Positions 1,396 to 18,603 of a DNA stretch of 64,000 bases are shown in pieces (position 1 is the first letter of the stretch; each line of letters starts with the position of its first letter). The stretch is taken from IMG/VR virus record IMGVR_UViG_3300042449_000993, positions 62,001-126,000 of that record, one strand, 5' to 3'. Source of the DNA: a virus. The notes under the pieces were generated by a model. That model did not search any database, was not told the DNA's origin, and saw only the letters and a list, made by a program, of their open reading frames with translations. Position numbers and translations under genes: made by a program.

Positions 1396-4300
1396 ATGTC
1401 TAATCTACTTACAATTAATACAAAAGGAATTTTATTTCCTGATGGAAGTTTTCTAGATACTGCGCAAGTTGGATCAAATCTCAACGTTGCAGCAAATGGC
1501 TCATCTATTGAGTTTACGAAATTTCTCAATTTTATTAATACTGATACAGTCACCGTTTCAGTAACTCCAAACACAGGTAATCCTGGATATACAAACGTTG
1601 CATTCACATCAACTGGTGGGGGTGGCGGTGGAGTGAGTGGTCCATCAGGTCCATCAGGTCCATCTGGACCAAGTGGTCCATCTGGAGCAGCATCAACAGT
1701 TTCTGGTCCGCAAGGCGCACAAGGTCCGTCTGGTCCATCTGGCGCACAAGGTGCCGCATCTACTGTTTCTGGACCACAGGGTGCACAAGGTCCATCTGGA
1801 CCATCGGGTGCTCAGGGGGCAGCATCTACAGTTTCTGGTCCTTCTGGTCCGCAAGGAACATCAGGTCCATCTGGTGCTGCCTCTAATGTTTCAGGTCCAC
1901 AAGGTTCACAAGGTGTTTCTGGTCCCAGTGGTCCATCGGGTCCATCTGGCGCTGCCTCTACAGTTTCTGGACCATCTGGACCAAGAGGTATAACTGGTCC
2001 GTCTGGTGCACAAGGCGTATCAGGTCCACAGGGAACTGGTCCGTCAGGTCCACAAGGAACTCAAGGTGTTTCTGGTCCAAGTGGTCCACAAGGAGATCCA
2101 GGTGGTCCATCTGGTCCGTCAGGTCCACAAGGTCCGCAAGGTCCACCAAATGGTCCATCTGGTCCAAGTGGTCCACAAGGTCCTTCTGGTCCAACTGGTG
2201 ACAAATATTCTACATCTAGTACATCGACATTTACGATTGCTCAAAATATAAACATCACGATTACAGTCGGCACTGGTTTATCTTGGACGCCTGGACGTGG
2301 TGCTCTTATTCGACACGATGGATTTAACTTTATATACGGAAGTGTTGAAGCATATAATCCAGCCACTGGTGAATTTACATTCTTCTCAGATCCAATTCTT
2401 GACTCTGCAGCAGGTGTAGGAAATTCATTTAGCAGTTGGAAAGTTGATGTTGCAATAATATTCTCAACAGTAGAAGGTCCTACTGGTCCATCAGGTGCTG
2501 CATCTACCATTTCTGGTCCAACTGGTCCGTCAGGTCCATCGGGTCCATCTGGCGCTGCCTCTACAGTTTCTGGACCATCAGGTCCGAGTGGTCCAAGAGG
2601 TGCATCAGGTCCATCTGGTCCATCAGGTCCACAAGGACCAAATGATGCAGCATCAATCAATTACATCCAAGATGGCACAGGTGCTGTTAGCAGAACAGTT
2701 CAAGCAGGATTGAGAGATCGAATTAGTGTATTTGATTTCATGACAACTGCTGAAATCACCGATGTTGAAAATAGATCGTTTACTCTTGATGTAACATCAA
2801 AAATTAAAGCAGCGATCGACGCTGCATCAGCACAAAGAAAAGATCTGTTCATTCCAGCAGGATTGTATAAGATCGTTCCAGCAACAGCATCTGAGTGGGC
2901 TGGTGGTGCTGCTGACTCTGGTCCAGTTTATGTTGCATTTACAATACAAAATAATATGTCTATTGTTGCTGAGGAAGGTGCAGTATTTAAACTTGCAGAC
3001 AATTTCTCAGTTGTTGGTGCTGTGAAAGCGCATGCGATGTTCTTTACAAATGTCCCAACTGCAAATGTCTCCTTCTATGGTTTGACAATGGACATGAATG
3101 GAAATAACAATGATGGTATCGCGCCATTCCCTGGAGACAATAATCCACAAATCTTTATTAGTGGTAAAACACCACGCTATTCTATTCCATCAAGAAGAGC
3201 AACAAGCACCTCAACCAACACAATTGGAACAGGATCAAAATCATTCACCATAGAAACTGGTAAAAGTTTTAGTGTTGGTGAAGATATTGGTATGTTAGTT
3301 GCTTCAGGAACTGGAGCATCATTATGGTCTATGCATGGAACCGTCACATCGTATAATAGTGGCAGCGGTGCTCTAGTGGTAAATGTAACTCAAACTAGCA
3401 TATATGGAGTTGGTCAAAGCGTCGGTGGAAGTTCTGGTGGCGCGCCTCGTTGGGCAATTGGTGATGGTATTGGAGCATATATTGACGATGTTGTAATTGA
3501 AAAGTGCATCTTCTTGAATAATATGGGTAAAACTGTTCTTGGTTGTGCTCAATTAGATGGCGCAACGAAAATAAAATTAGGAAAAAATTGGAAAGTTCTG
3601 AACTGCACATTTAAAAATAATGGTAAACGTGCTGCGGACCACTCAACATTTTACGGTATGGTTGATGATTTGACTGTAGAAGGATGTTCATTCACAGCAG
3701 ATTCAATGTTCCCAAATGGTTCAACTGGACCATATGCTGATGGTGGTGGAACAATAACATGTGGTACACTTGTTGCGATTGAAACTCACGGAAGCAATCA
3801 CAGATATAGTAACAATTTATTTGAAAATTACTATCAAGGATTTTGGATTGCCTCAAACGGAGCATTTGAAGCAAACAATATTGTAATTGCGCAAAATAAT
3901 TTCAAAGTATTGACTTATGGAATGGGTTCGTATAGACGCGAAGGTGGTCCAACAATTATTCGAAATGTGAATATTTCTGACAATACATTCATATATGACA
4001 ATACTTCTAGCGCAGATGGCGTTCCTAAAGTGGGTGTTCTTATTGCTGAAGATGAAGAGATTGAAGATTGGAGCATCTGTAACAACATTGCTAGAAAAGA
4101 AGTGCCTGCTGGGCAATCAAATTATCAATCTTATTTTATAGGAATATTCACTGCACGTGTAAGCGGCGTGATGGATCGAATTGTTATTGATGGTAACTAT
4201 TGCACTGGATTTGCTCGCGGCATTGTTTTGTATAGTGCTGTATCAGGAAAGAGTTTAGGAACAATTCGAATCACGAACAATACCATTTTAAATCCAAACA

Positions 4301-5085
4301 CCACTTCATCATTCCCATCTGGTGCATATGGAATTTTGGCTTATACAACTGGTGGTGCATCTACAGTCAAAGAATTAATTATCGATAATAACTCATTTAT
4401 TGATAATCGTGCTTCGCCACAAATGCAATATGGGATTAGATTATCTGGTGATTGGACAGTTAATAATCTTTGGAGAGATGGGAACAAATACTATGGATCA
4501 ACAGTAGCAGATTTTGATTCAACTGGAGCGGTTATCACAAATACACGATCTGCAGATGGCGGTGGTGCAACTGGTCCGCAAGGCGCACAAGGTCCATCTG
4601 GTCCAACTGGTGCACAAGGCTCACAAGGACCAAGTGGACCAACATCAGGTGCTTCAAGCATCACGAATTTCACACCAACTTGGTATAATCAAGAATTTGG
4701 TTCTCCGCAAACAGCTGTAACGATTGGAAACGGAAACAACGTTGGGTATTATAGTTTGAATGGAAATGAAGTTACAGTTGTCGCAACATTATTGTTGGGA
4801 AGTACAACAAGTATTGCCACCAAATCAACATCAGGATATGTATATCTTGCATTACCCTTTGCCTCTGCTTATGCAGGATTAAGTTATAATGGTGTCTGGA
4901 GAATTTACGACGATAGTGTCGCTAAATTTTATAGTGGATCTGCGTTTGTCGATGGTGGTGGTAGTACTGTCTCTTTGGCTGTTGATAATGGTTTGTTCGT
5001 TCGAAATGCTGCAGGTTCTGAGAATCCTGTAAATTTTGCTGCGGGAGACGCATTGTCCGTGCAATTAACATATTTCAAGACATAA
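1396..5085 (+). CDS. Collagen-like tailspike with right-handed beta-helix
   Basis: 1229 residues. After an 80-residue N-terminal domain come about 190 residues of Gly-X-Y triplets dominated by GPS, GPQ and GAQ (bases 1634-2200). A 90-residue beta insert follows, then a second collagen-like block (about 2473-2640). Next is the usual entry to phage beta-helix tailspikes: [10 protein letters not shown], then [20 protein letters not shown], as in the pectate-lyase-3 superfamily. About 550 residues of Asn- and Gly-rich coils follow, rich in NNxF steps. A third short [10 protein letters not shown] block (4570-4648) leads to a C-terminal jelly-roll-like domain. It is probably a trimeric receptor-binding or polysaccharide-degrading tailspike; catalytic residues cannot be assigned by eye. 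The neighbouring 2OG oxygenase and GlcNAc-transferase could modify its prolines (inference). Confidence 0.85.
1634..2200 (+). repeat. Collagen-like Gly-X-Y coding repeat
   Basis: Nine-base triplet-of-codons repeats (ggtccatct-like) encode GPS/GPQ/GAQ triplets, with interruptions such as AASTVS. Two shorter copies lie at about 2473-2640 and 4570-4648 in the same gene. Proline sits mostly at the X position of the Gly-X-Y triplet. This block accounts for the minus-strand and frame-shifted open frames in the region. Confidence 0.85.
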
Positions 5086-5138
5086 TCAACTTGATTTTGG
5101 CGTAAATTTAACGTAGAATATAGGGATGTTTCGATCCT

Positions 5139-5146
5139 TATAAATA
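5139..5146 (+). promoter_or_regulatory. T4-type late promoter (TATAAATA)
   Basis: An exact TATAAATA octamer lies 23 bases before the ATG at 5170, in the 84-base gap after the tailspike gene. In T4 this sequence is bound by the gp55 sigma factor with RNA polymerase, and a gp55 homologue is present at 39766. Confidence 0.75.
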
Positions 5147-5169
5147 TAAAAAAGATTTTTGGGATTACT

Positions 5170-6339
5170 ATGTCAGATTTAAATAAAACTTGGCTCCCTG
5201 GACCTTCGAGAGGAACGACTACCGTAACCTCTCCAGGAAACGTTACAATCCCATATGGTCGTTTTGTTGGTACAGTTTCAGGAAAGGGTGCTCCTGGAAA
5301 CTCTCCAGTAACAGCAGGTTGGGTGACAAACTATAACACCAATTATAATGTTGCGTATCCAATCGCCAATCAGCCGATCGCAAATCAGCCACTGGCGAAT
5401 CAGCCAGCAACTGCTTGGACAACCAATTACAATACAAACTATAACACCAATTATAATGTTGCGTACCCAATCGCGAATCAACCAATCGCCAATCGTCCAA
5501 TCGCAAATCAACCAGCAACTGCTTGGACAACAAACTACAATACCAATTATAATACGAACTATTTCGTAACATATCCATTTGCTGGATTCGGTTTTGGACA
5601 CTTCTCGTTTGGTGGAAATAATCCAGGTGTTTATTTCGTGAACTCTTATCGATATTGGACTTACGGTATCTATCAAAACCAAGCTGGTCCTCCAGGATAT
5701 GTTCAAAGTACCAGTTACAACTTCGACGACTCTCAATGTCCATCGCACTTTGCATTCGATCAAACAAATCCATTACAATATCAGTGGCACTGGGTTTACT
5801 TTCAATGCTGGCATCAATTTGCACCAGGAAATGCATTCTTTTTCACAAATTACAATACAGAATATAACGTCGCATATCCTGTTGCAAATCAACCAGTGGC
5901 AAATCAACCAATTGCAAACCAGCCTATAACTGCTTGGACGACAAACTATAATACCAATTATAATACGAACTACAACGTTGCTTATCCAATTGCCAACCAA
6001 CCAATCGCAACTCAGCCACTGGCGAATCAACCAATAACTGCTTGGACGACAAACTATAATACAAATTATAATACCAACTACAATGTCGCGTATCCAATTG
6101 CGAATCAACCAATTGCAAATCAACCAGCCACAGGATTTACTCCTGGAAACATTGGTGCTTCTGCTTCTGCTCTTGGTGTGACATTACCTGGCGGTGCAGT
6201 TGGTAATGTGATTGATGGTGGTCCAATTCCAGCGACACCAATTTCACCAACAACAGTAAGTTACTGGACTTACCCAGATAATTCAACATATCCTGTTACA
6301 GCCCCTTCTGGATCGGAAGTCGTAATTAAACTTGAATAA
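5170..6339 (+). CDS. NYNT/IANQP repeat virion protein
   Basis: 389 residues made largely of two alternating short repeats: a four-residue NYNT run and a five-residue IANQP run, joined by VAYP and closed by TAW. About three blocks of roughly 36 residues lie on each side of a central, aromatic and glycine-rich non-repeat domain (residues about 138-225). That domain contains a W-x-W-V-Y segment and two cysteines. A short Gly/Ala-rich C-terminal domain ends the protein. The gene has its own late promoter, which argues for a virion part made late. Polar repeats of this kind suggest a beta-solenoid or extended fibre. I recognise no named family. The Pro-rich repeats could be hydroxylation targets of the gene directly downstream (inference). 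Confidence 0.7.
   Translation: MSDLNKTWLPGPSRGTTTVTSPGNVTIPYGRFVGTVSGKGAPGNSPVTAGWVTNYNTNYNVAYPIANQPIANQPLANQPATAWTTNYNTNYNTNYNVAYPIANQPIANRPIANQPATAWTTNYNTNYNTNYFVTYPFAGFGFGHFSFGGNNPGVYFVNSYRYWTYGIYQNQAGPPGYVQSTSYNFDDSQCPSHFAFDQTNPLQYQWHWVYFQCWHQFAPGNAFFFTNYNTEYNVAYPVANQPVANQPIANQPITAWTTNYNTNYNTNYNVAYPIANQPIATQPLANQPITAWTTNYNTNYNTNYNVAYPIANQPIANQPATGFTPGNIGASASALGVTLPGGAVGNVIDGGPIPATPISPTTVSYWTYPDNSTYPVTAPSGSEVVIKLE
5320..6130 (+). repeat. NYNT / IANQP coding repeat blocks
   Basis: Two repeat arrays, about 5320-5570 and 5850-6130, flank a unique centre. Each array has about three units of roughly 108 bases, encoding NYNT tracts followed by IANQP tracts. Copies differ mostly at third codon positions, which suggests selection on the protein rather than recent duplication. 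Confidence 0.75.
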
Positions 6340-6363
6340 TTAATTGAGAGTGGAGTGAATATT

Positions 6364-6954
6364 ATGTTTAAGATTGATAAATTCAAAAGACAGTTTCCTA
6401 AATTCTGTCATGTTGAACAAGTCTTTTCTAAAGAAGAAGTAAAAAGAATTTATGATTTGGAAGATTTAGAAAAATTCCGAAGAGGAATGGTTGGATCTAA
6501 TAATTCTGAAGGTGAGGTTAAACTCGAATCTCGAGATTCTGAGATTATGTGGGTTAATCCTAATCATGAATCAGGTTGGATCTTTGATCGTTTTGCTCAA
6601 GTCTTAGCAAACGTGAACTATGATTTCTTCAATAGTAATATTAATCATATGGGTCCATTTCAATATACTCTTTATCGCGAAAATCAATATTATAACTGGC
6701 ATGTTGATTCAGATTCCATGTATGCTGATTTAACTCGAAAAATTAGTGCAACAATTATGTTATCTGATGCTTCTGATTATGTTGGTGGTGAGTTCGAATT
6801 GATTGCAAATGGTAATGTGGAACAGCCAATAATGCTTCGACCAAATGCAGGTGATATTATTTTCTTCGCCTCTCACATGCCTCATCGTGTTCGAGCAGTT
6901 ACACAAGGTGTGCGGAAATCGCTAGTGAATTGGATATATGGACCATGGGATTAA
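6364..6954 (+). CDS. 2OG-Fe(II) dioxygenase, PKHD / prolyl-hydroxylase type
   Basis: 196 residues from ATG 6364, preferred because GAGTGGAG lies 8 bases upstream; a GTG at 6355 would add three residues. The double-stranded beta-helix signature is complete. The iron ligands are H113-x-D115 (WHVDSD) and distal H174 in MPHRV, and R184 in GVRKS binds the 2-oxoglutarate carboxylate. The spacing fits the PKHD/prolyl 4-hydroxylase family. Proteins of this type hydroxylate prolines or other residues with O2 and 2-oxoglutarate, and they are common in cyanophage-like myoviruses. The gene sits between proline-rich fibre genes (collagen-like and IANQP repeats) and a Skp1-type GlcNAc-transferase, so a virion protein is a plausible substrate. 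The substrate is inferred, not shown. Confidence 0.85.
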   Translation: MFKIDKFKRQFPKFCHVEQVFSKEEVKRIYDLEDLEKFRRGMVGSNNSEGEVKLESRDSEIMWVNPNHESGWIFDRFAQVLANVNYDFFNSNINHMGPFQYTLYRENQYYNWHVDSDSMYADLTRKISATIMLSDASDYVGGEFELIANGNVEQPIMLRPNAGDIIFFASHMPHRVRAVTQGVRKSLVNWIYGPWD

Positions 6955-6964
6955 TGGATAAATT

Positions 6965-7711
6965 ATGGATCTCTCAAAGTTCACAAAACTCAAGTTTTGG
7001 TCAAATAACATCATTGAATTTTATTGTAGAAAAGAATTCGAAGGTGTAATTCCTGAACCAAAACCAGCAGCGAAATACTTTCCAGAATGGTTTAAAAATC
7101 TAGAACCATACATTGCTGCTAGAGATAAAAGCAGTGGTGATAAAAGAATCATGACTGCGAAAAGATGTCTGCCTCTCATCGATGCAATGTCATTGGGTTT
7201 TGTTATCCCTCTTGCTGCTGATTGCCACGTTTTAACAAATCATGACAATTCTCAAATACTTTTTAATGGATTGGCTGGATCATTCCCAATTATTGAATCT
7301 CATGATAAGCGACAAGTCGGAGGTCACAGCACAATTAAAAGAAATAATGGAGATGCTCTTAAATTCCTAAATTATTGGGTTGTGAAAACTGCTCCAGGAT
7401 GGTCAAGCCTTTTTATTCCTCCGATTAATAATTTCTCACAGCCGTTTACCTGTTTAGGTGGAATGGTTGATACTGACAAATATACAAAAGAAGTGAATTT
7501 TCCAGCAGTTTGGCATGCTCATAATTTTGATGGAATGATTTATGCAGGAACACCGCTTATTACTGTAATACCAATTAAAAGAAATATTTTTGATAAGAAA
7601 CCTGTTATTCGAAAAATGACTAAAAAAGAACAAGAAACTCATAATCAAATGAATCGAATTCAAAATAGTCGTCTTAGTTATTATACAAATGAGTTGAGGG
7701 TTAAGAAATGA
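6965..7711 (+). CDS. Conserved phage protein, DUF6065-like (copy 1)
   Basis: 248 residues. The N-terminus has the pattern IPEPKPAAKYFPEWFKNL, then a CLPLIDAMSLGFVIPL segment, and near the C-terminus a short stretch with TPLITVIPIKR. This layout recurs in the gene directly downstream (YIIPA; PLFHIIPLK), so the two are diverged paralogues. I recall similar proteins in cyanophage-like tail regions under a DUF6065 label, but cannot check this. There are no membrane segments or obvious catalytic motif. It ends in an ATGA overlap with the next gene, so the pair is translationally coupled. Its place among glycosyltransferase and oxygenase genes suggests a part in fibre or glycan modification, which is inference only. 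Confidence 0.6.
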   Translation: MDLSKFTKLKFWSNNIIEFYCRKEFEGVIPEPKPAAKYFPEWFKNLEPYIAARDKSSGDKRIMTAKRCLPLIDAMSLGFVIPLAADCHVLTNHDNSQILFNGLAGSFPIIESHDKRQVGGHSTIKRNNGDALKFLNYWVVKTAPGWSSLFIPPINNFSQPFTCLGGMVDTDKYTKEVNFPAVWHAHNFDGMIYAGTPLITVIPIKRNIFDKKPVIRKMTKKEQETHNQMNRIQNSRLSYYTNELRVKK

Positions 7712-8493
7712 GATTTATTAAGTATTTTATGGGTGATAATAATGACATTTTGGACAATGGCATTCATCCAAAAAAAGACGATATTGAGTTTATCTGTTTC
7801 ATGGGTCAGGCTGCGTCTCATGAACAAACTCGAGTTAAACTTGCAAAAGAAGTCGACACAAAATTTAAAAAGTATCAAGTCGAAAAGCATGGATCGTACA
7901 CCTTTGCTCAATGTCCAGGAATGTTAGATTATTCCCGTCTAGGATATATCATTCCAGCATGGACCAACTTTGAGTTCATGTACAACTCTGCAGGTGTAGA
8001 GATATTTGATGGAACAATCGATTCTAGAGTTCGCTCTAAAATTCCATTAAGAGGATTCGATCCAACTATTTTCGATGGCGCAATTAAAAACGACGATGGA
8101 TCTAAAACTGAAATCTATAACATTCAAGCACCTTGGCATATTCGATGCAAGCCTGGAGTCCATATGATGATTATGCCTGCATTCTATCATAGCAATATTC
8201 TAGATGATTTTCATATCCTTCCAGGTGTTATTGATTATGGTAGCGGATTTCATACGATTAATTTCTTAACTGGACCAAAGAGATATGGTCAGTTTAAGAT
8301 TATGATGGGCGAGCCTCTATTCCACATCATTCCTCTCAAGAATGTCCCATTCACTGCTTCTTATGGACTTGTTGATAATTATAAAAATGTCTATAAAGAA
8401 GATGAGTTTTTTGGTAAAATTAAGAGTTTCTATAGAAAATTTTATTGCGGAAAGAGAAAATTCTCCTTACGAAAGGAGATGGGAGATAAATGA
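7708..8493 (+). CDS. Conserved phage protein, DUF6065-like (copy 2)
   Basis: 261 residues, starting in an ATGA overlap with the preceding gene and ending in an ATGA overlap with the glycosyltransferase. Shared features with copy 1 are a central GYIIPAWTNFEFMY segment (compare GFVIPLAADCHVL), a PWHIRCKPGVHMMIMPAFYH segment (compare APGWSSLFIPPINN), and a late GEPLFHIIPLK segment (compare GTPLITVIPIK). The N-terminal part differs and the C-terminal tail is basic and longer (YRKFYCGKRKFS). It is probably a diverged tandem duplicate with related function. No catalytic motif is visible and the biochemical role is unknown. Confidence 0.6.
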   Translation: MRFIKYFMGDNNDILDNGIHPKKDDIEFICFMGQAASHEQTRVKLAKEVDTKFKKYQVEKHGSYTFAQCPGMLDYSRLGYIIPAWTNFEFMYNSAGVEIFDGTIDSRVRSKIPLRGFDPTIFDGAIKNDDGSKTEIYNIQAPWHIRCKPGVHMMIMPAFYHSNILDDFHILPGVIDYGSGFHTINFLTGPKRYGQFKIMMGEPLFHIIPLKNVPFTASYGLVDNYKNVYKEDEFFGKIKSFYRKFYCGKRKFSLRKEMGDK

Positions 8494-9473
8494 AAACTAT
8501 TTTCGTAAGCATTGCTTCATATAGAGATAAACTTCTTTTAGCAACTCTGAACTCATTAAGGCAAAATGAGTCTGGTCGAAATAAGATCGTTTATGGTGTT
8601 TTCGAACAGACCAAAAAAGAAGACAGTTTAGAGACAAAAGCACCAGAGTTGCTAGACAATGCTGCGATTCGATACAAAAGAATAGACCCAGAATATGCTG
8701 ATGGAGTCGTCTGGGCTCGAGCAATCAACGCCATGCAGCACTATGATGAAGAGTTTTTCTATCAGATCGACTCTCATATGCTCTTTGATAAAGACTGGGA
8801 TAACACTCTTTTGTGGGACTATCAACAAGCATCTAGGCTTGCAAATAACCCTAAAGTTATTTTAACAACAGGCACGAAGAATTTCGAGTATTTCTCAAAT
8901 TATATCACAAAACATACACTAACTCGTGATATAACAGTGAATTTTAAGTATTGGCAATTTGATAAGGAATTATGTCTAAAGGTTCATGGTCCTTGGATTG
9001 CCGCGACTGATACTGTTGTTCCTGGAATCCATACGATCGCAGGTAACTTTTTCGCACCTGCTACCTGGATTAAAGATGTCGGATTCAACACTAGATTGTT
9101 TTTTGAGTATGAAGAACAATATATGTCTCTTACATCCATATTGGCTGGATATAAAATCTATCATCAGAGAAAGATCCAATGCTATCATTATCTGGATTCT
9201 GCGAAATCAACAACTCGCCAAGAGAACGATCCAGTTCGTCCGTCGAAGATCTTTGACAATAAGAAGCGAGAGAAGGAGGAATTTATCAATTATATATACT
9301 CTTTAGGTGAGGAGAAACTTGAAGAATATCGAAGATTGACAGGAGTTGATTATATAAATAGAAAATTAGAAGAGCGCGCAATCACCAGAACCGTTCCTCC
9401 AACAATTCCTGTTGATTGGGAATTGCCTCAACCACCAGAACCAGCAAAAGACGAAGAGAAAAATGAGCCTTGA
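8490..9473 (+). CDS. Skp1-type GlcNAc glycosyltransferase (PF11397-like)
   Basis: 327 residues. It begins FVSIASYRDKLLLATLNSL, followed by GVVWAR at 72-77 and the metal-site motif QIDSHMLF with D94-S-H96. This order is typical of the GT-A family whose founder, Dictyostelium Gnt1, adds GlcNAc to hydroxyproline on Skp1. Related genes occur in bacteria and large phages. The C-terminal 40 residues are Pro- and Glu-rich and probably disordered. The gene overlaps the preceding unknown by four bases and the following one by eleven. Its nearness to a prolyl-hydroxylase-like gene (6364) and to Pro-rich fibres suggests glycosylation of hydroxylated virion proteins. Sugar and acceptor are not readable from the sequence. 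Confidence 0.8.
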   Translation: MKTIFVSIASYRDKLLLATLNSLRQNESGRNKIVYGVFEQTKKEDSLETKAPELLDNAAIRYKRIDPEYADGVVWARAINAMQHYDEEFFYQIDSHMLFDKDWDNTLLWDYQQASRLANNPKVILTTGTKNFEYFSNYITKHTLTRDITVNFKYWQFDKELCLKVHGPWIAATDTVVPGIHTIAGNFFAPATWIKDVGFNTRLFFEYEEQYMSLTSILAGYKIYHQRKIQCYHYLDSAKSTTRQENDPVRPSKIFDNKKREKEEFINYIYSLGEEKLEEYRRLTGVDYINRKLEERAITRTVPPTIPVDWELPQPPEPAKDEEKNEP

Positions 9474-10149
9474 AAATGATTTTAAAGAAGTATTTTCATA
9501 TTCAATGCATGCTGGTGGTGGGACCAATCTAAATTTCGATGACATTGATAAAAATCTCTATAATACTCGAAAAATTGATCGATACTTTCTAGAAGGTATC
9601 AAGATCGACCCAAAGATCCACTCTACTCAAATGTTTTTAGCCAATAGTTTTTATTTTCTAGTGGCTGGAGAGATTGATATTAAATATCAAGACGGATCCG
9701 ACGATCGCGTTTCTGGTTCTTATTATAATTCGAATGATTGGGTTTCCTATAAAAAATTCTGGACTGAGAATAAGCCATGTAAGATTATTCCTTCTCAGAA
9801 TGCATGTTTATATAAAATTCAGAGAATAAAAGAAATACAGAATGATTCGCCTCTCAACGATCTATCAAACTTAAATGTGATAGTTAAAAAAGTGAGTGCA
9901 GATAACGTTTCTTTCACTACAACAGGTAATAGCATTCTTCTAGTGTTTAATGCTAGCATGGAAGAATTTACTTTAAGAAATGAAACAATTGTGTTTAATA
10001 CCTCAACTGAATCTGATTATTGCGAAATTCTTATTGACAAGAATCCGCAGTTTATAAAATTTAAAAATTATTATAGATTCTCAGTTAACGGAAATTGCAC
10101 ATTTTCTACTGCAAACTCTTGTCATTTAGTTTTGTTGACACCAAAGTAA
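9463..10149 (+). CDS. Unknown protein, possible cupin-like
   Basis: 228 residues from ATG 9463, which has GAAGAGAAA just upstream and overlaps the glycosyltransferase end by 11 bases; an earlier TTG at 9412 is less likely. The sequence is rich in short beta-strand patterns (FYFLVAGEIDIKY, NSILLVFNAS, NSCHLVLLTP) with two similar halves, suggestive of a double beta-barrel such as a cupin, but no metal-binding His cluster is evident. There is no signal peptide or membrane segment. It lies between a glycosyltransferase and small virion genes. I do not recognise a family, and function is left open. Confidence 0.6.
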   Translation: MSLENDFKEVFSYSMHAGGGTNLNFDDIDKNLYNTRKIDRYFLEGIKIDPKIHSTQMFLANSFYFLVAGEIDIKYQDGSDDRVSGSYYNSNDWVSYKKFWTENKPCKIIPSQNACLYKIQRIKEIQNDSPLNDLSNLNVIVKKVSADNVSFTTTGNSILLVFNASMEEFTLRNETIVFNTSTESDYCEILIDKNPQFIKFKNYYRFSVNGNCTFSTANSCHLVLLTPK

Positions 10150-10165
10150 AGAATAGGAAAATAGC

Positions 10166-10504
10166 ATGGCAAGTCAAGTAGAATTATTTTGCGATCAAGG
10201 ATCTACATTTTCCTACACGATAGATATTGCAAATGACGACGGCACAAAAATTAATGTTGCTGGATATTCATTCTCATCATCTATTCGTAAATCATATTAT
10301 TCAAATAAAGTTGCTGCGAATTTAACCGTGGCAACTACAGACGCCGCAAACGGAAACGTTGCATTATCTATGAATGCAGCAACTACAGCAAACATTAAAG
10401 CTGGCAGATATCTTTATGACGTTAGAATGGTAGACACATCAAATGTTGTTACACGTGTGATTGAAGGAGTCATTACTGTCTACCCACAAGTAACAAAGTC
10501 ATAA
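10166..10504 (+). CDS. Small virion protein, BppU-N / Ig-like
   Basis: 112 residues with the pattern of a single Ig-like beta domain. It starts VELFCDQGSTFSYTIDIAN and has YSFSSSIRKS in the middle and GRYLYDVRMVD, then VIEGVITVYPQVT at the end. This is the layout of baseplate/fibre N-terminal domains such as those found upstream of fibre genes in many phages. Four bases separate it from the long fibre gene that follows. It probably acts as a fibre connector or baseplate attachment domain encoded as a separate small protein. The role is inferred from fold pattern and position. Confidence 0.65.
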   Translation: MASQVELFCDQGSTFSYTIDIANDDGTKINVAGYSFSSSIRKSYYSNKVAANLTVATTDAANGNVALSMNAATTANIKAGRYLYDVRMVDTSNVVTRVIEGVITVYPQVTKS

Positions 10505-10508
10505 AGAA

Positions 10509-13118
10509 ATGAAGGTAACGGTTGGATCAAATAGTAATACATCATTCCAACCAGCAACAGACAGAGGTTCTGGTGCTGCCATAACTGTCAATCCACCTGC
10601 AGGTTCTACTGTTAAAATCTCAACAGTTGGTGGTGCTGGCACAGGACCTGCATACGATCAAGCAAACATTGCTAGATCTACTGCGAATAGTGCTTATGGA
10701 CAAGCCAACGCTGCATACAATGCGGCAAATAGCGCCAAAGTCACGGTGTATGCAAATAGTGGTGCAGCCAACGCAACCACACAAAATATTAATTTTGTAA
10801 ACACATCGTCGATTCTTGTCACAGTTGCAAATACAAACGGAAATGCAAATATTTCGTTTGCAGTCACTGGTGCTGCTGCTGGTGATGCGTATGATCAAGC
10901 AAATGCGGCAAGAGACCAAGCAAATACAGCACTTAATGTTGCTAATGGCGCATATAGTCAAGCCAACGGAGCATATGCCCAAGCAAATGGTGCTTACTCG
11001 CAAGCAAACGGAGCATATAATCAGGCTAATGGTGCATATGCTCAAGCCAATGGTGCATATGCTCAGGCTAATGGAGCATACTCTCAAGCAAATAGTGCTT
11101 ACAATCAAGCCAATGATGCATACAGTCAAGCGAATGCTGGATATGCAACTGCTAATGCGGCTTATGCGACAGCAAACACTAAATTAAGTTTATCTGGTGG
11201 TACAATTACAGGACCAATTAGTGGATTAGGAAATTCTAAACTAGACCTTACTACTTTCGGAGCCAACACCGCATATCTAACAACTACTGATAATGATTCT
11301 ACTGCATTGTTTATGGGAGCGGTGTCTGCTGAGTTATACGCTAATACATATGTTCAAATTAGAGCCAATACTGGAGGAGCATCACAAAACTGGACATTTG
11401 GTGCAGATGGTACATTAACATTTCCAGACACAACAGTACAAACTACAGCCTTTACAACCGAATTAACTAATGCAATCTCAAATACGGTATCAACTGTATC
11501 GACAATTGCAAATGCCGCATACGATAAAGCAAACACTGCACTAGATATCGCGAACGGCGCATATGGTCAAGCCAACGTTGCGCGCACTACTGCAAACGAT
11601 GCATATGATCAAGCGAATACCGCTAGAAACACTTCCAACAGCGCATATCTACAAGCAAATAATGCTTATGATACAGCCAATTTAAAACTTAATATTTCTG
11701 GTGGAACCATTAATGGTTCATTGAATATCAGTGGAAATTTATTTGTTAGTGGCAACACATCATATATTAATGTTTCAACATTTGTTGTTGATGATGCATT
11801 AATTTATCTCGGCGCAAATAATACTCTTAGCGATGTTGTTGACATAGGATTTATTGGTGCGAAAAACAGTGGTCCATCAGTAACTCATACTGGTCTTGTT
11901 CGTGATGCTGGAGATGGTACTTGGTATTTGTTCGATAATTTGCCAGATTCAGGTCATCAAAATAACGTAGTTGATTTTGCAAACACCACGCTTGCAACAC
12001 TTCGAGCAAATATCGCTGCAAATAGTATTCTTTTAGTTGGAAACGTCGTTGCTACTCAAGCCAACTTAACTCTTGCGTTCAATCAAGCAAACACGGCGAG
12101 AACAACTGCCAACGATGCATATGGACAAGCCAATTCTGCTAGAGACCAAGCGAACACCGCTAGAGATCAAGCCAATACCGCCAGAAATCAAGCAAATTCA
12201 GCCTACGCAGATTCTAATACTCGAGTCTTAAAATCTGGCGATACAATGACAGGTCAATTGAACATCAGTTCAGGTGGCTTGATTGTTACTGGTAATATTA
12301 CCACAACAGGAGCAAGTGGTGATATTAGTGGCGTTAATACAATATATGCTGGAACTTTCTCAACAACTGCTGGGTTGAATGTAACTGCTCAAGCAGCAAA
12401 TGCATACGATCAGGCAAATAATGCCAGAAATCAAGCGAACACAGCTCGCGATCAAGCGAATACCGCCAGAACAACGGCGAATGATTCTTATGGCGCAGCA
12501 AATACAGCAAACACTAATGCATTAAATGCTTATGCTCAAGCCAATGCCGCTTATGATGCAGCCAATAATGCTAAAATAACGGTATTCCAGAACAATGCTT
12601 CAGGAATAACCACTCAAAATCTAAATTTTGTCAATACATCAACTGTAACTGTAAGTGTTCAGAATAGTAGTGGAAACGCAAATATATCATTCACCTCTAT
12701 CGGTGGTGTTCAAGATTATTCTTATAATACGACTTCAACCTCTACCGAAACTGTAGATTCGTGGTCAACTACAGCCTTCCGAAGCGGTAAGTATCAAATT
12801 CAAGTCTCCAGCTCTGTGGGTTATTTGACTTGCGAGATCGCTCTGCTTCATGCAGGAAATGTCACAAACATGTTACAGTATGGAAACGTTTCTATTGGTG
12901 CACCAGTTGGCGTATTCACATCGGATGTAAATAACGGTAATGTTCGTCTTCGATTTGCAGCAACCGACATTACGACAAGAATTAGATACTTCAGATCATT
13001 GTTAATTAATGATTCTGGATTCGACCCAGAAGTTCTCCCAACAGATCTCATGACTGGTATCGACACATACGATCTGATGGAAGTTCTCTACCTCATACCG
13101 ACAGATCTAAATGCATAG
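10509..13118 (+). CDS. Long tail fibre, alanine-heptad type
   Basis: 869 residues. The order is: a short N-terminal domain; alanine heptads (AYDQANA, AYSQANG), interrupted by a STSSILVTVANTNGNANISF module; a long run of GAYAQAN heptads; a globular domain with GTLTFPDTTVQTTAF; more heptads; a domain with SGNLFVSGNTSYINVSTF-like and GFIGAKNSG motifs that reappears in the next gene; further heptads; and a unique C-terminal domain (about residues 740-869) with SWSTTAFRSGKYQIQVSS. The last motif is shared with many phage neck/fibre tips. The heptads have Ala at 4-3 spacing, so a trimeric alanine coiled coil is expected. It is probably a host-recognition fibre. Confidence 0.8.
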   Translation: MKVTVGSNSNTSFQPATDRGSGAAITVNPPAGSTVKISTVGGAGTGPAYDQANIARSTANSAYGQANAAYNAANSAKVTVYANSGAANATTQNINFVNTSSILVTVANTNGNANISFAVTGAAAGDAYDQANAARDQANTALNVANGAYSQANGAYAQANGAYSQANGAYNQANGAYAQANGAYAQANGAYSQANSAYNQANDAYSQANAGYATANAAYATANTKLSLSGGTITGPISGLGNSKLDLTTFGANTAYLTTTDNDSTALFMGAVSAELYANTYVQIRANTGGASQNWTFGADGTLTFPDTTVQTTAFTTELTNAISNTVSTVSTIANAAYDKANTALDIANGAYGQANVARTTANDAYDQANTARNTSNSAYLQANNAYDTANLKLNISGGTINGSLNISGNLFVSGNTSYINVSTFVVDDALIYLGANNTLSDVVDIGFIGAKNSGPSVTHTGLVRDAGDGTWYLFDNLPDSGHQNNVVDFANTTLATLRANIAANSILLVGNVVATQANLTLAFNQANTARTTANDAYGQANSARDQANTARDQANTARNQANSAYADSNTRVLKSGDTMTGQLNISSGGLIVTGNITTTGASGDISGVNTIYAGTFSTTAGLNVTAQAANAYDQANNARNQANTARDQANTARTTANDSYGAANTANTNALNAYAQANAAYDAANNAKITVFQNNASGITTQNLNFVNTSTVTVSVQNSSGNANISFTSIGGVQDYSYNTTSTSTETVDSWSTTAFRSGKYQIQVSSSVGYLTCEIALLHAGNVTNMLQYGNVSIGAPVGVFTSDVNNGNVRLRFAATDITTRIRYFRSLLINDSGFDPEVLPTDLMTGIDTYDLMEVLYLIPTDLNA
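10900..11190 (+). repeat. Alanine-heptad coding repeat, fibre 2
   Basis: This is the longest uninterrupted array in this gene, about fourteen 21-base units encoding GAYAQAN/GAYSQAN-like heptads. Shorter arrays lie at about 11510-11690, 12070-12230 and 12395-12570. Units match those of the flanking fibre genes closely enough to be recombination substrates. Confidence 0.75.
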
Positions 13119-13177: not shown

Positions 13178-16100
13178 ATGCCAACAACATTACAATTTAG
13201 AAGATACGATACAGCAAATATTGCCAATACAACTGGTGCTGTTGGTGAAATCTTCATTGATATGGATAAAGACACTATCGTTGTTCAGGATGGTGTTACT
13301 TCTGGTGGATTTCCTCTGGCTAGAGAGTCTGCTCTTATTTCTGCATATGGTGGTGCTAATGCAGCCTACGATCAAGCCAACAGTGCTCGAGATCAAGCCA
13401 ATACTGCCAGAGACCAGGCAAATACTGCTCGAACAACCGCCAACGATGCGTACAATACAGCAAATACAAAACTTTCAAGTTCTGGTGGAACAATCAGTGG
13501 AAATCTTGTAATTTCTGGAAATTTAGAAGTTTTAGGAAATAGCACCACACTTAATGTTGAAACTCTTCTCGTTGAAGATAATGAAATTGTTCTAAATGCG
13601 AACGTGGTCGGCGCACCATCATTAAATGCGTTCATTACGGTAAATCGCGGATCAAATCAAAATTCAGCTCTAGTTTGGTCTGAAGTTGGAATTGGGTATT
13701 GGGGTTGGTCTGACGGTGATGGAGTTATCTACTTCGATTCGTTAAGAGCAGCCACTGTTGCAACAAATACTGCTCTTAATCAAATAAACGCAACAATTGT
13801 CAATGTTAACACAAATGTTGCCACAGTTTATGATCAAGCAAATGCCGCTCGCAATCAAGCAAATACGGCTAACACTAATGCGAGTACCGCCAAAGGACAA
13901 GCAGATATAGCTCGAGATCAAGCGAACGTTGCTCGTACGACTGCTAATGATTCATATGGTCAAGCGAACACTGCTAGAGACCAAGCAAACACCGCACGCG
14001 ATACTGCTAATGGAGCATACGACCAAGCAAATGGTGCGTATGGTCAGGCTAACGGCGCATATGCTCATGCAAATATTGTTTACGATCAAGCGAATACTGC
14101 TCGTAATCAGGCAAATACTGCGCGAGACACAGCAAACGGCGCATACGATCAAGCAAACGCAGCATATGGCGACGCCAATACTCGAGTGTTGAAGGCTGGC
14201 GATACAATGACTGGTGCACTAAATGTACAGTCAAATGTAACAGCTGTTGGATTCTTGAGCAGCAAAACAACTCTTCAAGCACCAAGCACCACAAACTTTA
14301 ATGGTGAACGTGTTCGTCTTTATGACTTTAACGAAGCAGGTCACCCAAACTATGCAATTGGCGTTGAAACAAACTTTATTTGGAGTGGCACAGACGAAAA
14401 TAACGGTCAAACTGGTTTCGCGTGGTATGGAAATACTACACGAAATGCTATTATGCGTTCCAATGGTACGTTGCAATTAAGCAATACTGTTGAAGCAAAA
14501 GTTATTCGCGCTAATGGTACTGGCACTGCAATTGATGCAAGTCAAGGTAACATTCTAACAAATGAAGTCACTGGTACGAAGTTTAAATTCCTTGCTGGTG
14601 CAAATACAGTAACTGTTGATGCCTCTGGTGCTCTAGCAAATTACACATTTAATCTACCGCCAACAGGTGGTGTTGCTGGTCAAGTGCTTGAAACAGATGG
14701 TAATGGAGACACTATTTGGAGCAGTAACGTTTATTCATTGACGAATACAGTTTATGATCAAGCAAATACTGCTAGAAACCAAGCCAATACTTCCAGAGAT
14801 CAAGCAAATACTGCTAGAGATCAGGCGAATAGTGCTACTGTTATTGGTGAGAATGCATACGCTCAAGCCAATACAGCTCGAGATATTGCCAATGCATCTT
14901 ATGGTCAAGCAAATGCTGCATATGATGATGCAAATACCAGAGTATTGAAATCTGGCGATACGATGACAGGAACATTAAATGTCGCTGCGTCATTAATCAC
15001 ACAGAACATTGTTCCAAATCTAAATGTAACTTACGACATTGGTACAGCTGATAAAAGATTCAATGATCTTTATCTTTCAAACAGTTCTATCTATCTTGGT
15101 GATGCAGTTCTAACTGCAAATGGTCCAGTTCTTGTTGTTTCTGGAATTGAAATTGATGGAAGTGGAAATCTAGTTGCTGCATTCGAGTCATATAATCAAG
15201 CCAATGCTGCCAGAGATCAGGCGAATACTGCCAGAGATACTGCGAATGGAGCATACGGTCAAGCAAATGGTGCTTATGCTCATGCAAACATCGTATACGA
15301 TCAAGCAAATACTGCACGTGACGCAGCTAATGCATCTTATGGGCAAGCGAATGCCGCTAGAGATCAAGCGAATACGGCTCGCGACGTTGCCAATGCATCT
15401 TATGGACAGGCAAACACTGGAAGCACTCAAGCAACTGCCGCCAGAGATCAAGCGAACGTTGCTCGTACAACTGCAAATGATTCTTATGGACAGGCGAACA
15501 CTGCTAGAGATCAGGCTAATACCGCACGCGATACTGCTAATGGAGCATACGACCAAGCAAATACTGCTCGTGACACTGCAAACAGTGCTTACAATGCAGC
15601 AAATAACGCACAAGTAACTGTTTACGCAAACAGTGCTTCTGATGTCACAACTCAGAAAATCAACTTTGTTAATACCTCCACGATTACCGTATCAGTAACA
15701 AATAGTGCTGGGAATGCAAACATTGCATTCACGGCAACTGGTGGTGCTGCTTACGATCAAGCCAATGCTGCTTACGATCAAGCAAACACTGCACGTAGTA
15801 CTGCAAATGATTCTTATGGACAAGCAAACACTGCTCGCGATGTAGCAAATGCTTCTTATGGTCAAGCAAATACCGCCAACACCAATGCATTGAATGCTTA
15901 TGATCAAGCAAATACTGCCAGAGACCAAGCGAATACTGCTCGAACAACAGCTAATGATTCATATGCTCAAGCGAATACCGCTCGCAATACTGCAAACGAC
16001 TCATATAGCCAGGCAAATACTGCTCGCAACACTGCTAATGATTCGTATGGACAAGCCAATACTGCTAGAGATACAGCCAATGGTGCGTATGGACAAGCGA

Positions 16101-18571
16101 ATACTGCTCGTGATACAGCCAATGATGCTTATGGTCAAGCAAATACCGCTAGAGATCAGGCAAATACTGCTCGCAATACCGCAAATGGTGCATATGGTCA
16201 AGCGAACACTGCTCGTGATACAGCGAATTCTGGATATGGGCAAGCAAACTCTGCGCGCGATCAAGCCAATACTGCTCGAGCAACAGCAAATGATGCTTAC
16301 GGTGCAGCAAACACTAAATTGTCGACTTCTGGTGGATCTATCAGCGGAGACTTGACAATTTCTGGTAATCTTGTTATTCAAGGTAATGCAACGACGATCA
16401 ATGTCAGCAGCTTGTCAGTTAATGACTCTATAATTTTGTTGTCAGCAAATAGTACTGGTGACGCAGAGGATATTGGTTTTGTTGGACATTATACTAATGG
16501 CGCGACAAATACTCACGCTGGTTTCTTCAGAAAAGCAACAGAAAATCAATTTTATGTCTTTGACAATTATGAAACTGAACCAACAAATAATGTCATTGAT
16601 ATTGCAAATAATAATTTTAGAATTGGTAATGTTAGACTTGGAATTTTAAATGCGAATAGCGTTTTGTTGCTCGGCAATTCAGTTGCAACTCAAGCAAATC
16701 TAACATTGGCTTACAATCAAGCCAATAGCGCAAGAGACCAAGCCAACACCGCTCGCACGACTGCAAACGATGCATATGCAGAGGCAAATAGTGCGGAAAC
16801 AATTGCGCTCAATTCATATGGTCAAGCCAATACTGCTCGCGATCAAGCGAATACTGCTCGTAATACAGCGAATTCTGGATATGGTCAAGCCAATACCGCA
16901 CGTGACACTGCAAATGGCGCTTATGGTCAGGCTAACGGCGCATATGCTCAGGCAAACACTGCTCGCGATCAGGCAAACACTGCTCGCGATCAGGCAAACA
17001 CTGCTCGTACGACTGCAAATGATTCATACGCTCAAGCGAATACTGCAAGAAATACTGCAAATGATGCATATGCTGGTGCTAATACGGCAAATACCAATGC
17101 ATTGAATGCTTATGCTCAAGCCAATAACGCTAGAGATCAGGCAAACACTGCTCGCACTACAGCCAATGATGCTTATGGTCAAGCAAATACCGCTAGAGAT
17201 CAGGCAAATACTGCTCGCACTCAAGCAAATACTGCTTACGCTCAAGCCAATGGTGCTTATGCCCATGCGAACATTGTTTATGCTCAAGCAAATACAGCAT
17301 ACGATCAAGCAAATTCTGCTCGTAACCAGGCAAATACAGCAAGAGATACTGGCAACAATGCATACGGTCAGGCAAATACTGCTCGTGACCAAGCAAATAC
17401 TGCTCGAACAACCGCCAACGATGCGTACATTCAAGCAAATTCAAATTACCAGCCAGCAGTCACAAGGCTGAATGTGACAAATAGTGGAACATCTGATTAT
17501 TTGTTTGATCAATACTCAGGCGGTGATCCAACACTTTATGTCCGTGCTGGTGAAACTATTGCATTTAATTTAAACGTTTCAGGACATCCATTCTTAATTC
17601 GTGTTTCAAGTGGTGGAGCGTTATATAACACTGGACTTACTCACGTTGCAACAAACGGAACTGTGTCCACTGAAGGCAGTGCTCAGGCTAAAGAAAGTGG
17701 AACATTATATTGGAAGGTTCCATATAACTTACTTGGAAACACTTACGTTTATCAATGTCAAGTTCATGCTGGAATGGTTGGCAATATTGTAATTGAACCA
17801 CCTGGAACAATTGCATATGCACAAGCCAACGCTGCGTATGGGCAAGCAAACTCAGCCAGAGATCAAGCAAATACCGCTCGTACTCAAGCAAACACAGCAC
17901 GCGATACTGCAAATGCTGCGTATGGACAAGCGAACACGGCTCGTGACACAGCGAATGCTGCTTACGGCGCAGCAAATACAGCTGGTACAAATGCGCTAAA
18001 CGCATACGAACAAGCAAATACCGCTAGAGGTCAAGCGAATACTGCTAGAGACCAAGCAAACACCGCTCGTACTCAAGCGAATACGGCTTACGGACAAGCC
18101 AACGCCGCCTATGGTCAAGCGAATGCTGCTTATGGTCAAGCGAATTCTGCTTATGGTGCAGCAAACAATGCAGTATTGAAGGCTGGCGACACCATGACTG
18201 GTGTGTTGGTTGTTCCAGGTATTCGTAATTCAGGTAACTTGATTCTTGGTACTGTTGCAAATACAAATACCAATGGCGCCAATACATTGAATCTTGCTCA
18301 ATCAAACTTCTTTACAAGAACTTTGACAGCAAACTCCACGATCACCTTCTCAAATGCTCCAGCAAGTGGCAACTCGCAGTCGTTCACGCTTGTTATTGTT
18401 CAAGATGGTGTGGGTAATCGCGGCATAACTTGGGCAAATACGATTTATTGGGCAGGTGGCGAAGTTCCTCCGCAAACTTTGACAGCAAACTACCGAGACG
18501 TTTGGCAGTTTGCGACATATGATGGTGGATCAACCTACTTTGGAACTTTGGCTATTAAGGATGCACGCTAA
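13178..18571 (+). CDS. Giant tail fibre with alanine heptads and a cupredoxin-like domain
   Basis: 1797 residues. It begins TLQFRRYDTANIANTTGAVGEIFIDMD, a tail-fibre N-terminal motif used to attach to the baseplate or to another fibre. Alanine heptads (ARDQANT and variants) fill most of the length and are broken by at least five globular modules, several with SGNL-x-V/I-x-GN strands. Near residues 1423-1544 there is a cupredoxin-like domain with GHPFLIR and, later, YQCQVHAGMVGNI. The final 120 residues carry GDTMTGVL followed by a beta domain ending in FGTLAIKDAR, a common tip domain of marine phage fibres. It is probably the main long fibre. Shadow open frames on both strands are caused by the repeats. 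Confidence 0.82.
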   Translation: MPTTLQFRRYDTANIANTTGAVGEIFIDMDKDTIVVQDGVTSGGFPLARESALISAYGGANAAYDQANSARDQANTARDQANTARTTANDAYNTANTKLSSSGGTISGNLVISGNLEVLGNSTTLNVETLLVEDNEIVLNANVVGAPSLNAFITVNRGSNQNSALVWSEVGIGYWGWSDGDGVIYFDSLRAATVATNTALNQINATIVNVNTNVATVYDQANAARNQANTANTNASTAKGQADIARDQANVARTTANDSYGQANTARDQANTARDTANGAYDQANGAYGQANGAYAHANIVYDQANTARNQANTARDTANGAYDQANAAYGDANTRVLKAGDTMTGALNVQSNVTAVGFLSSKTTLQAPSTTNFNGERVRLYDFNEAGHPNYAIGVETNFIWSGTDENNGQTGFAWYGNTTRNAIMRSNGTLQLSNTVEAKVIRANGTGTAIDASQGNILTNEVTGTKFKFLAGANTVTVDASGALANYTFNLPPTGGVAGQVLETDGNGDTIWSSNVYSLTNTVYDQANTARNQANTSRDQANTARDQANSATVIGENAYAQANTARDIANASYGQANAAYDDANTRVLKSGDTMTGTLNVAASLITQNIVPNLNVTYDIGTADKRFNDLYLSNSSIYLGDAVLTANGPVLVVSGIEIDGSGNLVAAFESYNQANAARDQANTARDTANGAYGQANGAYAHANIVYDQANTARDAANASYGQANAARDQANTARDVANASYGQANTGSTQATAARDQANVARTTANDSYGQANTARDQANTARDTANGAYDQANTARDTANSAYNAANNAQVTVYANSASDVTTQKINFVNTSTITVSVTNSAGNANIAFTATGGAAYDQANAAYDQANTARSTANDSYGQANTARDVANASYGQANTANTNALNAYDQANTARDQANTARTTANDSYAQANTARNTANDSYSQANTARNTANDSYGQANTARDTANGAYGQANTARDTANDAYGQANTARDQANTARNTANGAYGQANTARDTANSGYGQANSARDQANTARATANDAYGAANTKLSTSGGSISGDLTISGNLVIQGNATTINVSSLSVNDSIILLSANSTGDAEDIGFVGHYTNGATNTHAGFFRKATENQFYVFDNYETEPTNNVIDIANNNFRIGNVRLGILNANSVLLLGNSVATQANLTLAYNQANSARDQANTARTTANDAYAEANSAETIALNSYGQANTARDQANTARNTANSGYGQANTARDTANGAYGQANGAYAQANTARDQANTARDQANTARTTANDSYAQANTARNTANDAYAGANTANTNALNAYAQANNARDQANTARTTANDAYGQANTARDQANTARTQANTAYAQANGAYAHANIVYAQANTAYDQANSARNQANTARDTGNNAYGQANTARDQANTARTTANDAYIQANSNYQPAVTRLNVTNSGTSDYLFDQYSGGDPTLYVRAGETIAFNLNVSGHPFLIRVSSGGALYNTGLTHVATNGTVSTEGSAQAKESGTLYWKVPYNLLGNTYVYQCQVHAGMVGNIVIEPPGTIAYAQANAAYGQANSARDQANTARTQANTARDTANAAYGQANTARDTANAAYGAANTAGTNALNAYEQANTARGQANTARDQANTARTQANTAYGQANAAYGQANAAYGQANSAYGAANNAVLKAGDTMTGVLVVPGIRNSGNLILGTVANTNTNGANTLNLAQSNFFTRTLTANSTITFSNAPASGNSQSFTLVIVQDGVGNRGITWANTIYWAGGEVPPQTLTANYRDVWQFATYDGGSTYFGTLAIKDAR
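13340..18170 (+). repeat. Dispersed alanine-heptad coding arrays, fibre 3
   Basis: At least six arrays of 21-base units, the densest at about 15180-15610, 15750-16320, 16710-17440 and 17810-18170. Units encode ARDQANT, ARTTAND, AYGQANT and related heptads. Long near-identical stretches are shared with 3-540 and 10900-11190. Confidence 0.75.
17446..17808 (+). other. Cupredoxin-like domain inside the giant fibre
   Basis: Within the coding sequence of the giant fibre, about 120 residues break the heptad pattern. They contain LYVRAGETIAFNLNVSGHPF at 17536-17595 and YQCQVHAGMVGNIVI at 17751-17795. In blue copper proteins the metal is bound by one early His and a late Cys-x-x-His plus a Met. Here His (HPF), Cys, His (C-x2-H) and Met (H-x2-M) are all present, so copper binding is possible. 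The Met spacing is shorter than in plastocyanin. Confidence 0.6.
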
Positions 18572-18603
18572 ATAAATTATAATTAACGATATGTGATTTT
18601 ATT

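Follow-up and report, generated by a model that had tools for sequence, protein, structure and literature searches.

A conserved oxygenase-DUF6065-glycosyltransferase cassette of uncultured tailed phages and its probable substrate, the adjacent tail-fiber adhesin

A cassette behind a putative fiber-tip adhesin

What is the target of an oxygenase and a glycosyltransferase encoded among the fiber genes of a phage? The question is raised by the window, a 64,000-nucleotide stretch of DNA (bases 62001 to 126000 of the 172,991-base virus record IMGVR_UViG_3300042449_000993), in which the gene of a probable fiber-tip adhesin (5170..6339, + strand) is followed by genes for a 2-oxoglutarate (2OG)-Fe(II) oxygenase (6355..6954, +) and a PF11397 glycosyltransferase (8490..9473, +). 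With a major capsid protein that shares 56% identity with its counterparts in cyanophage S-CREM1 and pelagiphage HTVC008M, the virus was taken to be a T4-like aquatic myovirus. A first-pass annotation had named four open reading frames (ORFs) here, at 1396-5085, 5170-6339, 6355-6954, and 8490-9473, all of which are present on the + strand and were correctly described, and had proposed that the phage hydroxylates prolines of its own fiber repeats and then glycosylates them as in the Skp1 pathway. The general idea is well supported for the adhesin encoded at 5170; the collagen-like tailspike encoded at 1396, proline as the modified residue, and the specifically Skp1-like route gave way in the analysis below.

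In the reading preferred here, which draws on sequence comparison, 5170-9473 would be an adhesin-plus-maturation cassette whose enzymes probably act on the adjacent adhesin (roughly three chances in four). In many uncultured phages a cassette standing behind a repeat-rich tail-fiber tip protein very likely decorates that protein.

Two paralogous DUF6065 genes, missed by the first-pass annotation, lie between oxygenase and transferase. Protein a (6965..7711, +) matched PF19541 with 33 bits (cut-off, 26.6) and phrog_7084 with an E value of 1e-56, and protein b (7708..8493, +) matched phrog_7084 only (E, 4e-17). Because these genes fill the space between them, the oxygenase and the transferase belong to one run (6355-9473). 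There are 4-bp overlaps between the last three genes of the run, and the oxygenase start follows the stop codon of the adhesin gene at a distance of 15 bp, so the gene set looks co-transcribed and translationally coupled.

The oxygenase, which has a GTG start, matched 2OG-FeII_Oxy_3 (PF13640) with 58 bits (cut-off, 27; E, 2e-15) and carries the complete HxD...H...R set, with H116, D118, H177, and R187 invariant in 22 relatives. The GT60-type transferase matched the GlcNAc family (PF11397) with 93.4 bits (cut-off, 21; E, 2.5e-26) and carries the DSH metal motif (QIDSHMLF) and the pair E208-E209; D94-S95-H96 and E208-E209 were invariant in 24 aligned relatives. The earlier assignment to a PF11397-like family was thus confirmed by score and motif, as was the presence of catalytic residues in both enzymes, and the invariance of these residues makes both look like working enzymes. 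The transferase gene is single copy in this genome, in which PF13640 has five matches, and no solved homologue of the transferase was found by sequence search of the PDB. In one related locus (L126:8001-9554), the transferase has a long C-terminal extension resembling, by eye, an S-adenosylmethionine-dependent methyltransferase.

Conservation of gene content and order

The run 6355-9473 is a conserved cassette in the order oxygenase, DUF6065, DUF6065b, and PF11397 transferase. A transferase alignment scan retrieved 80 IMG/VR loci and one contig of a metagenome-assembled genome (L165, 4.4 kb, probably phage), grouped into 25 clusters at 85% identity. The complete cassette was present in this one order in 22 of the 25 IMG/VR clusters; the exceptions were a truncated contig (L133) and a rearranged group (L117/L119), in which the oxygenase sits beside the transferase with no DUF6065, and a second adhesin, accompanied by an oxygenase and a pair of DUF6065 genes, comes next. 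A repeat protein with the N- and C-terminal frame of the 5170 product precedes the cassette wherever the contig extends upstream, and DUF6065b is present in cassettes of this adhesin type wherever the contig extends that far. An apparent absence of the oxygenase from L134/L193 was dropped as an ORF-calling artifact after a six-frame search recovered the gene. Scans with single proteins (transferase, DUF6065, or oxygenase) gave mostly near-identical contigs, and alignment-based scans were required; one single-protein match (L006) was a false hit, a single-sequence transferase scan of genome contigs gave no match, and the phage records held no relative of either the transferase or the 5170 product.

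The adhesin C-terminal frame was also used alone as a query, that is, from the substrate side with no enzyme, and retrieved 44 loci, some of them on new contigs. The oxygenase lay downstream in 44/44, directly or past a second adhesin, and at least one DUF6065 gene in 44/44, figures that are descriptive and give no probability, since the scan shares seed families and contains near-copies. The transferase stood directly behind in 34 of these loci. By chance, a PF13640 gene would be expected within 1.5 kb of a DUF6065 gene with a probability of about 0.06 per locus at the density in these records; the adjacency of oxygenase and DUF6065 is far beyond this, and among the loci examined this gene order prevails. 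In L044, two modules follow in tandem, each adhesin with its own enzymes: first a Gly-rich adhesin with DUF6065 and an oxygenase, then an NQP adhesin with oxygenase, DUF6065, DUF6065b, and transferase. In a low-Pro lineage, a sulfotransferase-like gene (L124:5147-5839; by eye, FYRNP motif) lies between adhesin and oxygenase.

The adhesin and its Gly-rich relatives

In the 5170 product, arms of aromatic-Asn/NQP repeats (TNYNTNYNVAYPIANQPATAW) flank a Cys-containing central segment on both sides and are enclosed by an N-terminal frame (about 5170-5325, +; KTW..(G)TTTFN.PGN..IPYGR...V.G.GG.GN) and a C-terminal frame (about 6112-6336, +; LGV..PGG...YW.YPDN.TYPVTVPSGG.I.IKIE). Neither Pfam nor NCBIfam gave a convincing match for the protein (extensin alone, E 0.003), which contains 7% Gly and 14% Asn, with arms that are essentially Gly-free. 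An AlphaFold2 (AF2) model resolved the two frames only, with a predicted local distance difference test (pLDDT) score of 77 to 93 compared to about 30 to 40 in the repeat arms. The N-terminal frame is homologous to that of Gly-rich adhesins (HHalign, 98.5%), and the Gly-rich type in turn aligned with cyanophage tail proteins of PF21722 type (93.9%), one of which passes PF21722 (Gly_rich_2); aligned directly, the 5170 type and the cyanophage proteins reached 22% only. The Gly-rich gp38 of T2, S16, and PP01 sits at the distal fiber tip (PMC12892980), and in hafunaviruses a Gly-rich adhesin at the distal tip is the host-range determinant (PMC8651126). We infer that the protein encoded at 5170 forms the tip of a tail fiber and contacts the receptor there.

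The DUF6065 scan revealed a shorter module composed of a Gly-rich adhesin, DUF6065, and oxygenase, with neither transferase nor DUF6065b. A small protein of about 105 to 130 amino acids ('M.I.KI.DIYLYT...'), without a Pfam match, recurs just before the Gly-rich adhesin or between adhesin and DUF6065 (L034, L038, L040, L041, L045, L047, L054, L055, L062, L074, and L075).

The oxygenases follow the type of adhesin. In a maximum-likelihood tree of 44 oxygenases, a clean split by adhesin type was obtained (29 versus 15; support, 100/98), with one change of adhesin label compared to 12.7 in shuffles. Because the cassette tracks the adhesin frame and the oxygenase tree divides by adhesin type, the substrate is very probably the adjacent adhesin. 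In line with this, the haloviruses HF1 and HSTV-2 encode DUF6065 three genes away from a Gly-rich protein matching the host-range adhesin of PMC8651126.

The collagen-like tailspike (1396..5085, +; Collagen PF01391, E 1.4e-17) was judged to lie outside the cassette. Collagen prolyl 4-hydroxylases act on Pro at the Y position, whereas the strict GXY triplets of the tailspike have Pro at X 31 times and at Y 0 times. The upstream neighbor of the adhesin differs between lineages, and the tailspike is no constant neighbor; it was rejected as the substrate that the first-pass annotation had included.

Which residue may be modified

The repeat units are fully different between lineages: TNYNTNYNVAYPIANQPATAW in the window, NLNYNPLVPG in L130, GTFNIVPGNATG in L163, ASYNAQNV in L124, ASYNTVTNYPYT in L115, and AVYNTVPGNPNPPN in L116. 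Common to them is an aromatic residue, usually Tyr or Phe, followed by Asn, which is over-represented in 16/16 adhesins. Among 38 dereplicated repeat adhesins, Asn had the least variable density (coefficient of variation, 0.18) and a longest arm gap of no more than 32 residues, compared to gaps of up to 127 residues for Pro (L124), 262 for Tyr, and 130 for Thr. Tyr was dropped as a target, as L158/L141 use Phe-Asn and are almost without Tyr. In the Gly-rich adhesins, the fraction of Asn at position X of GXY was 0.24 to 0.58 with oxygenase (n = 16) versus 0.05 to 0.15 in a small group without it (n = 3, two of them related), and Pro at Y rose likewise, from 0 to 6% without oxygenase to 8 to 23% with it. 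Asn appears to be the best single candidate, a tentative choice at slightly less than even odds; Pro is a weaker candidate, and a somewhat doubtful one.

According to the proposed mechanism, the oxygenase would hydroxylate a repeated residue in the low-complexity arms of the adhesin, most likely the Asn of the aromatic-Asn motif, then Pro, or another residue, and the PF11397 transferase would then add a sugar, most simply onto the new hydroxyl. The two DUF6065 proteins, near-constant partners in the cassette, may present the repeat arms to the two enzymes, act as chaperones for the adhesin, or catalyze a further step, and the decorated arms could stiffen, shield, or tune the adhesin or alter receptor binding. 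The most specific form of this proposal, with O-glycosylated beta-hydroxyasparagine at tens of sites of the receptor-binding protein and DUF6065 as a new class of modification enzyme or as a presenter, seems improbable as a whole; if it is true, the form with a Gly-rich adhesin, DUF6065, and oxygenase would serve tailed phages as a general means of adhesin hydroxylation.

Alternative explanations

In the proline version, the oxygenase would make hydroxyproline in the NQP/PG repeats of the adhesin and the PF11397 enzyme would add N-acetylglucosamine, like Gnt1 on Skp1. The transferase family, PF11397, is that of Gnt1; Pro occurs often in most repeats, and in the oxygenase-associated Gly-rich adhesins it stands at Y (GNPG), where collagen prolyl 4-hydroxylases act. 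Prolyl hydroxylases are among the proteins with a PF13640 fold. A prolyl 4-hydroxylase encoded by a virus and acting on viral peptides is known (Eriksson 1999, cited in PMC9301287). However, Pro is not in every repeat, and L124 has a stretch of 127 Pro-free repeat residues in front of an intact cassette; the adhesins share no single Pro motif, with a median NP density of 0.1 per 100, and the aromatic-Asn Asn is the most constant residue. The nearest relatives of the oxygenase are 2OG oxygenases of phages and of the PKHD/PiuC type, with no named prolyl hydroxylase among them: the closest solved relative is the PKHD/PiuC-type 3dkq (E, 9.4e-6), the closest named family is NF003974 (E, 3.3e-18), and no prolyl 4-hydroxylase family is listed for it in Pfam or NCBIfam. 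In a PDB sequence search for kinship with characterized prolyl hydroxylases, the oxygenases at E ≤ 1 were PKHD/PiuC chains only. Scores lay below the NCBIfam equivalog cut-offs for PKHD YbiX/PiuC as well (66 versus 143 bits and 36.6 versus 399). The full proline route seems unlikely.

A structural explanation is also rather unlikely. Here the Asn/aromatic pattern would be a requirement of the fold, the DUF6065 proteins would be chaperones, and the enzymes would modify a few nonrepeat sites, e.g., in the Cys-containing segment. Repeat folds often contain Asn ladders and stacked aromatic residues, and haloviruses keep DUF6065 with no PF13640 gene at all, so DUF6065 can serve an adhesin without an oxygenase. 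The AF2 model of DUF6065, built with 46 relatives, was confident (pLDDT, 87), and its only solved likeness was a weak one to dUTPases (TM-score, 0.38 by query length and 0.73 by target); among viral proteins it matched uncharacterized phage proteins and, further off, dUTPases, and a PDB sequence search with DUF6065 gave nothing useful. On the other hand, DUF6065 keeps invariant polar residues. Cys68, Trp138, Asn178, Gly195, and Pro197 are invariant and His113, Gln117, and Lys133 nearly so, a pattern as compatible with an enzyme as with a chaperone. The repeats of different lineages vary in length, a poor fit to a single solenoid, and in the few Gly-rich adhesins compared, Asn enrichment follows the presence of the oxygenase.

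Host-surface or small-molecule targets (lipopolysaccharide [LPS]/O-antigen, superinfection exclusion, or nutrient or 2OG metabolism), linked to the adhesin through the host only, are quite improbable: cyanophage 2OG oxygenases have been linked to DNA repair and nitrogen control (PMC3037559), but host-directed and metabolic roles predict neither the strict pairing with one frame (oxygenase and DUF6065 with every adhesin, 44/44) nor the split of oxygenases by adhesin type, and a host-acting enzyme need not track the repeat chemistry of the adhesin.

Several points weigh against modification of the adhesin, and of its Asn, by the cassette. Glycosyltransferases in the host-recognition cluster of pelagimyophages have been ascribed to changes of host LPS (PMC7029224), and membership in PF11397 is no proof of a polypeptide acceptor. 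A conserved neighborhood can also reflect joint transfer. The frame scan was seeded from adhesins found via the transferase, which leaves it only partly independent, and near-identical contigs inflate its 44 loci. The DUF6065-oxygenase pair is separable, since haloviruses and L042/L075 carry DUF6065 with no oxygenase. Structural needs can also account for the conservation of repeats rich in Asn and aromatic residues, and the oxygenase-free contrast group is small. All 38 adhesins except one have abundant Pro; because it is nearly everywhere and also rises with the oxygenase, the choice of Asn is a lean rather than a demonstration.

Relation to known systems and significance

The cassette shares a 2OG oxygenase and a PF11397 transferase with the Skp1 pathway of Dictyostelium and Toxoplasma (prolyl 4-hydroxylase PhyA and Gnt1, GT60), and a comparable logic of hydroxylation followed by glycosylation is plausible by analogy. 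Here, by contrast, the phage genes stand in one run that includes two DUF6065 genes, the likely substrate is a repetitive adhesin of the virion, and the residue is probably not Pro only; we know of no counterpart of the DUF6065 pair in the Dictyostelium pathway. PKHD-type PiuC/YbiX proteins are the nearest named and solved relatives of the oxygenase, and the phage gene context differs from theirs.

Virus-encoded hydroxylation and glycosylation of a virus's own repeat proteins is a known kind of process. Giant viruses modify collagen, with the prolyl 4-hydroxylase of PBCV-1 and the mimivirus lysyl hydroxylase/glycosyltransferase L230. These are eukaryotic viruses acting on collagen, in contrast to tailed phages with separate genes, DUF6065, and an adhesin as the likely substrate. 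The polyglycine-II adhesins of gp38 type (T2/S16/PP01) and the hafunavirus adhesins resemble the Gly-rich relatives of the 5170 frame as Gly-rich fiber-tip proteins, whereas the 5170 product has Asn/aromatic repeats and no Gly-rich (polyglycine-II) arms. To our knowledge, T2 and S16 have no such cassette. In the open-access literature, which is no proof of absence elsewhere, we found no paper on DUF6065 and no description of a DUF6065-bearing adhesin cassette in tailed phages or of oxygenase-modified phage fibers.

If the preferred reading is true, the host-touching part of these phages undergoes a dedicated, previously undescribed chemical modification, and the phages carry self-contained kits that decorate their host-recognition protein. 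Some orphan 2OG oxygenases and glycosyltransferases of aquatic phages, so far explained by roles in nitrogen control, in DNA repair, or in changes of LPS, would gain a function, and DUF6065, a widespread family without one, would gain a testable function. Fiber-tip proteins expressed apart from the partner genes might then not have their native form.

Oxygenase islands and neighboring genes

2OG oxygenases are common in T4-like marine phages. In cyanophages syn9 (L028, 3185-15986) and S-CREM1 (L030, 5914-15393) and in L082, an island of genes lies directly behind Gly-rich (PF21722-type) tail genes; it contains a tryptophan halogenase gene or two, a gene for a DUF6065-like protein, and a series of as many as eight 2OG oxygenase genes, among them one of JmjC type. 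Shared with the cassettes described here are the DUF6065-like protein, the 2OG oxygenases, and the place of both behind Gly-rich tail genes; the islands differ in having many oxygenases and a tryptophan halogenase, no PF11397 gene, and only a distant DUF6065. This arrangement suggests that 'auxiliary metabolic genes' of these islands may modify fiber-tip proteins by hydroxylation and perhaps Trp halogenation. The genome studied here encodes a tryptophan halogenase outside the window (142276-143847; PF04820, E 5e-107), next to a gene that resembles glucose-1-phosphate thymidylyltransferase and further genes apparently concerned with sugar nucleotides. A second cluster outside the window (13760-20000) has several 2OG-oxygenase-like genes beside glycosyltransferase and sugar genes.

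Behind the transferase, a gene of unknown function (9466..10149, +) has a weak relative in L031 (E, 8e-6) and otherwise varies between lineages. It is followed by a phrog_1084 protein (10166..10504, +), which also resembles phrog_3304 (L-shaped tail fiber assembly) and is a possible tail-assembly helper; a gene of 333 to 339 bp lies behind the cassette in most TNYN-type lineages. Farther downstream, 10509-13118 and 13178-18571 encode very long fiber proteins of QANTARDQANTARTTANDAY heptad-like repeats, and the same repeats occur in a 267-amino-acid open frame at the window start. A small tail-type protein encoded at 819-1382 carries the repeated Trp motifs KIWDSTEWK, KVWDGTTWQ, and HVWTGTAWQK.

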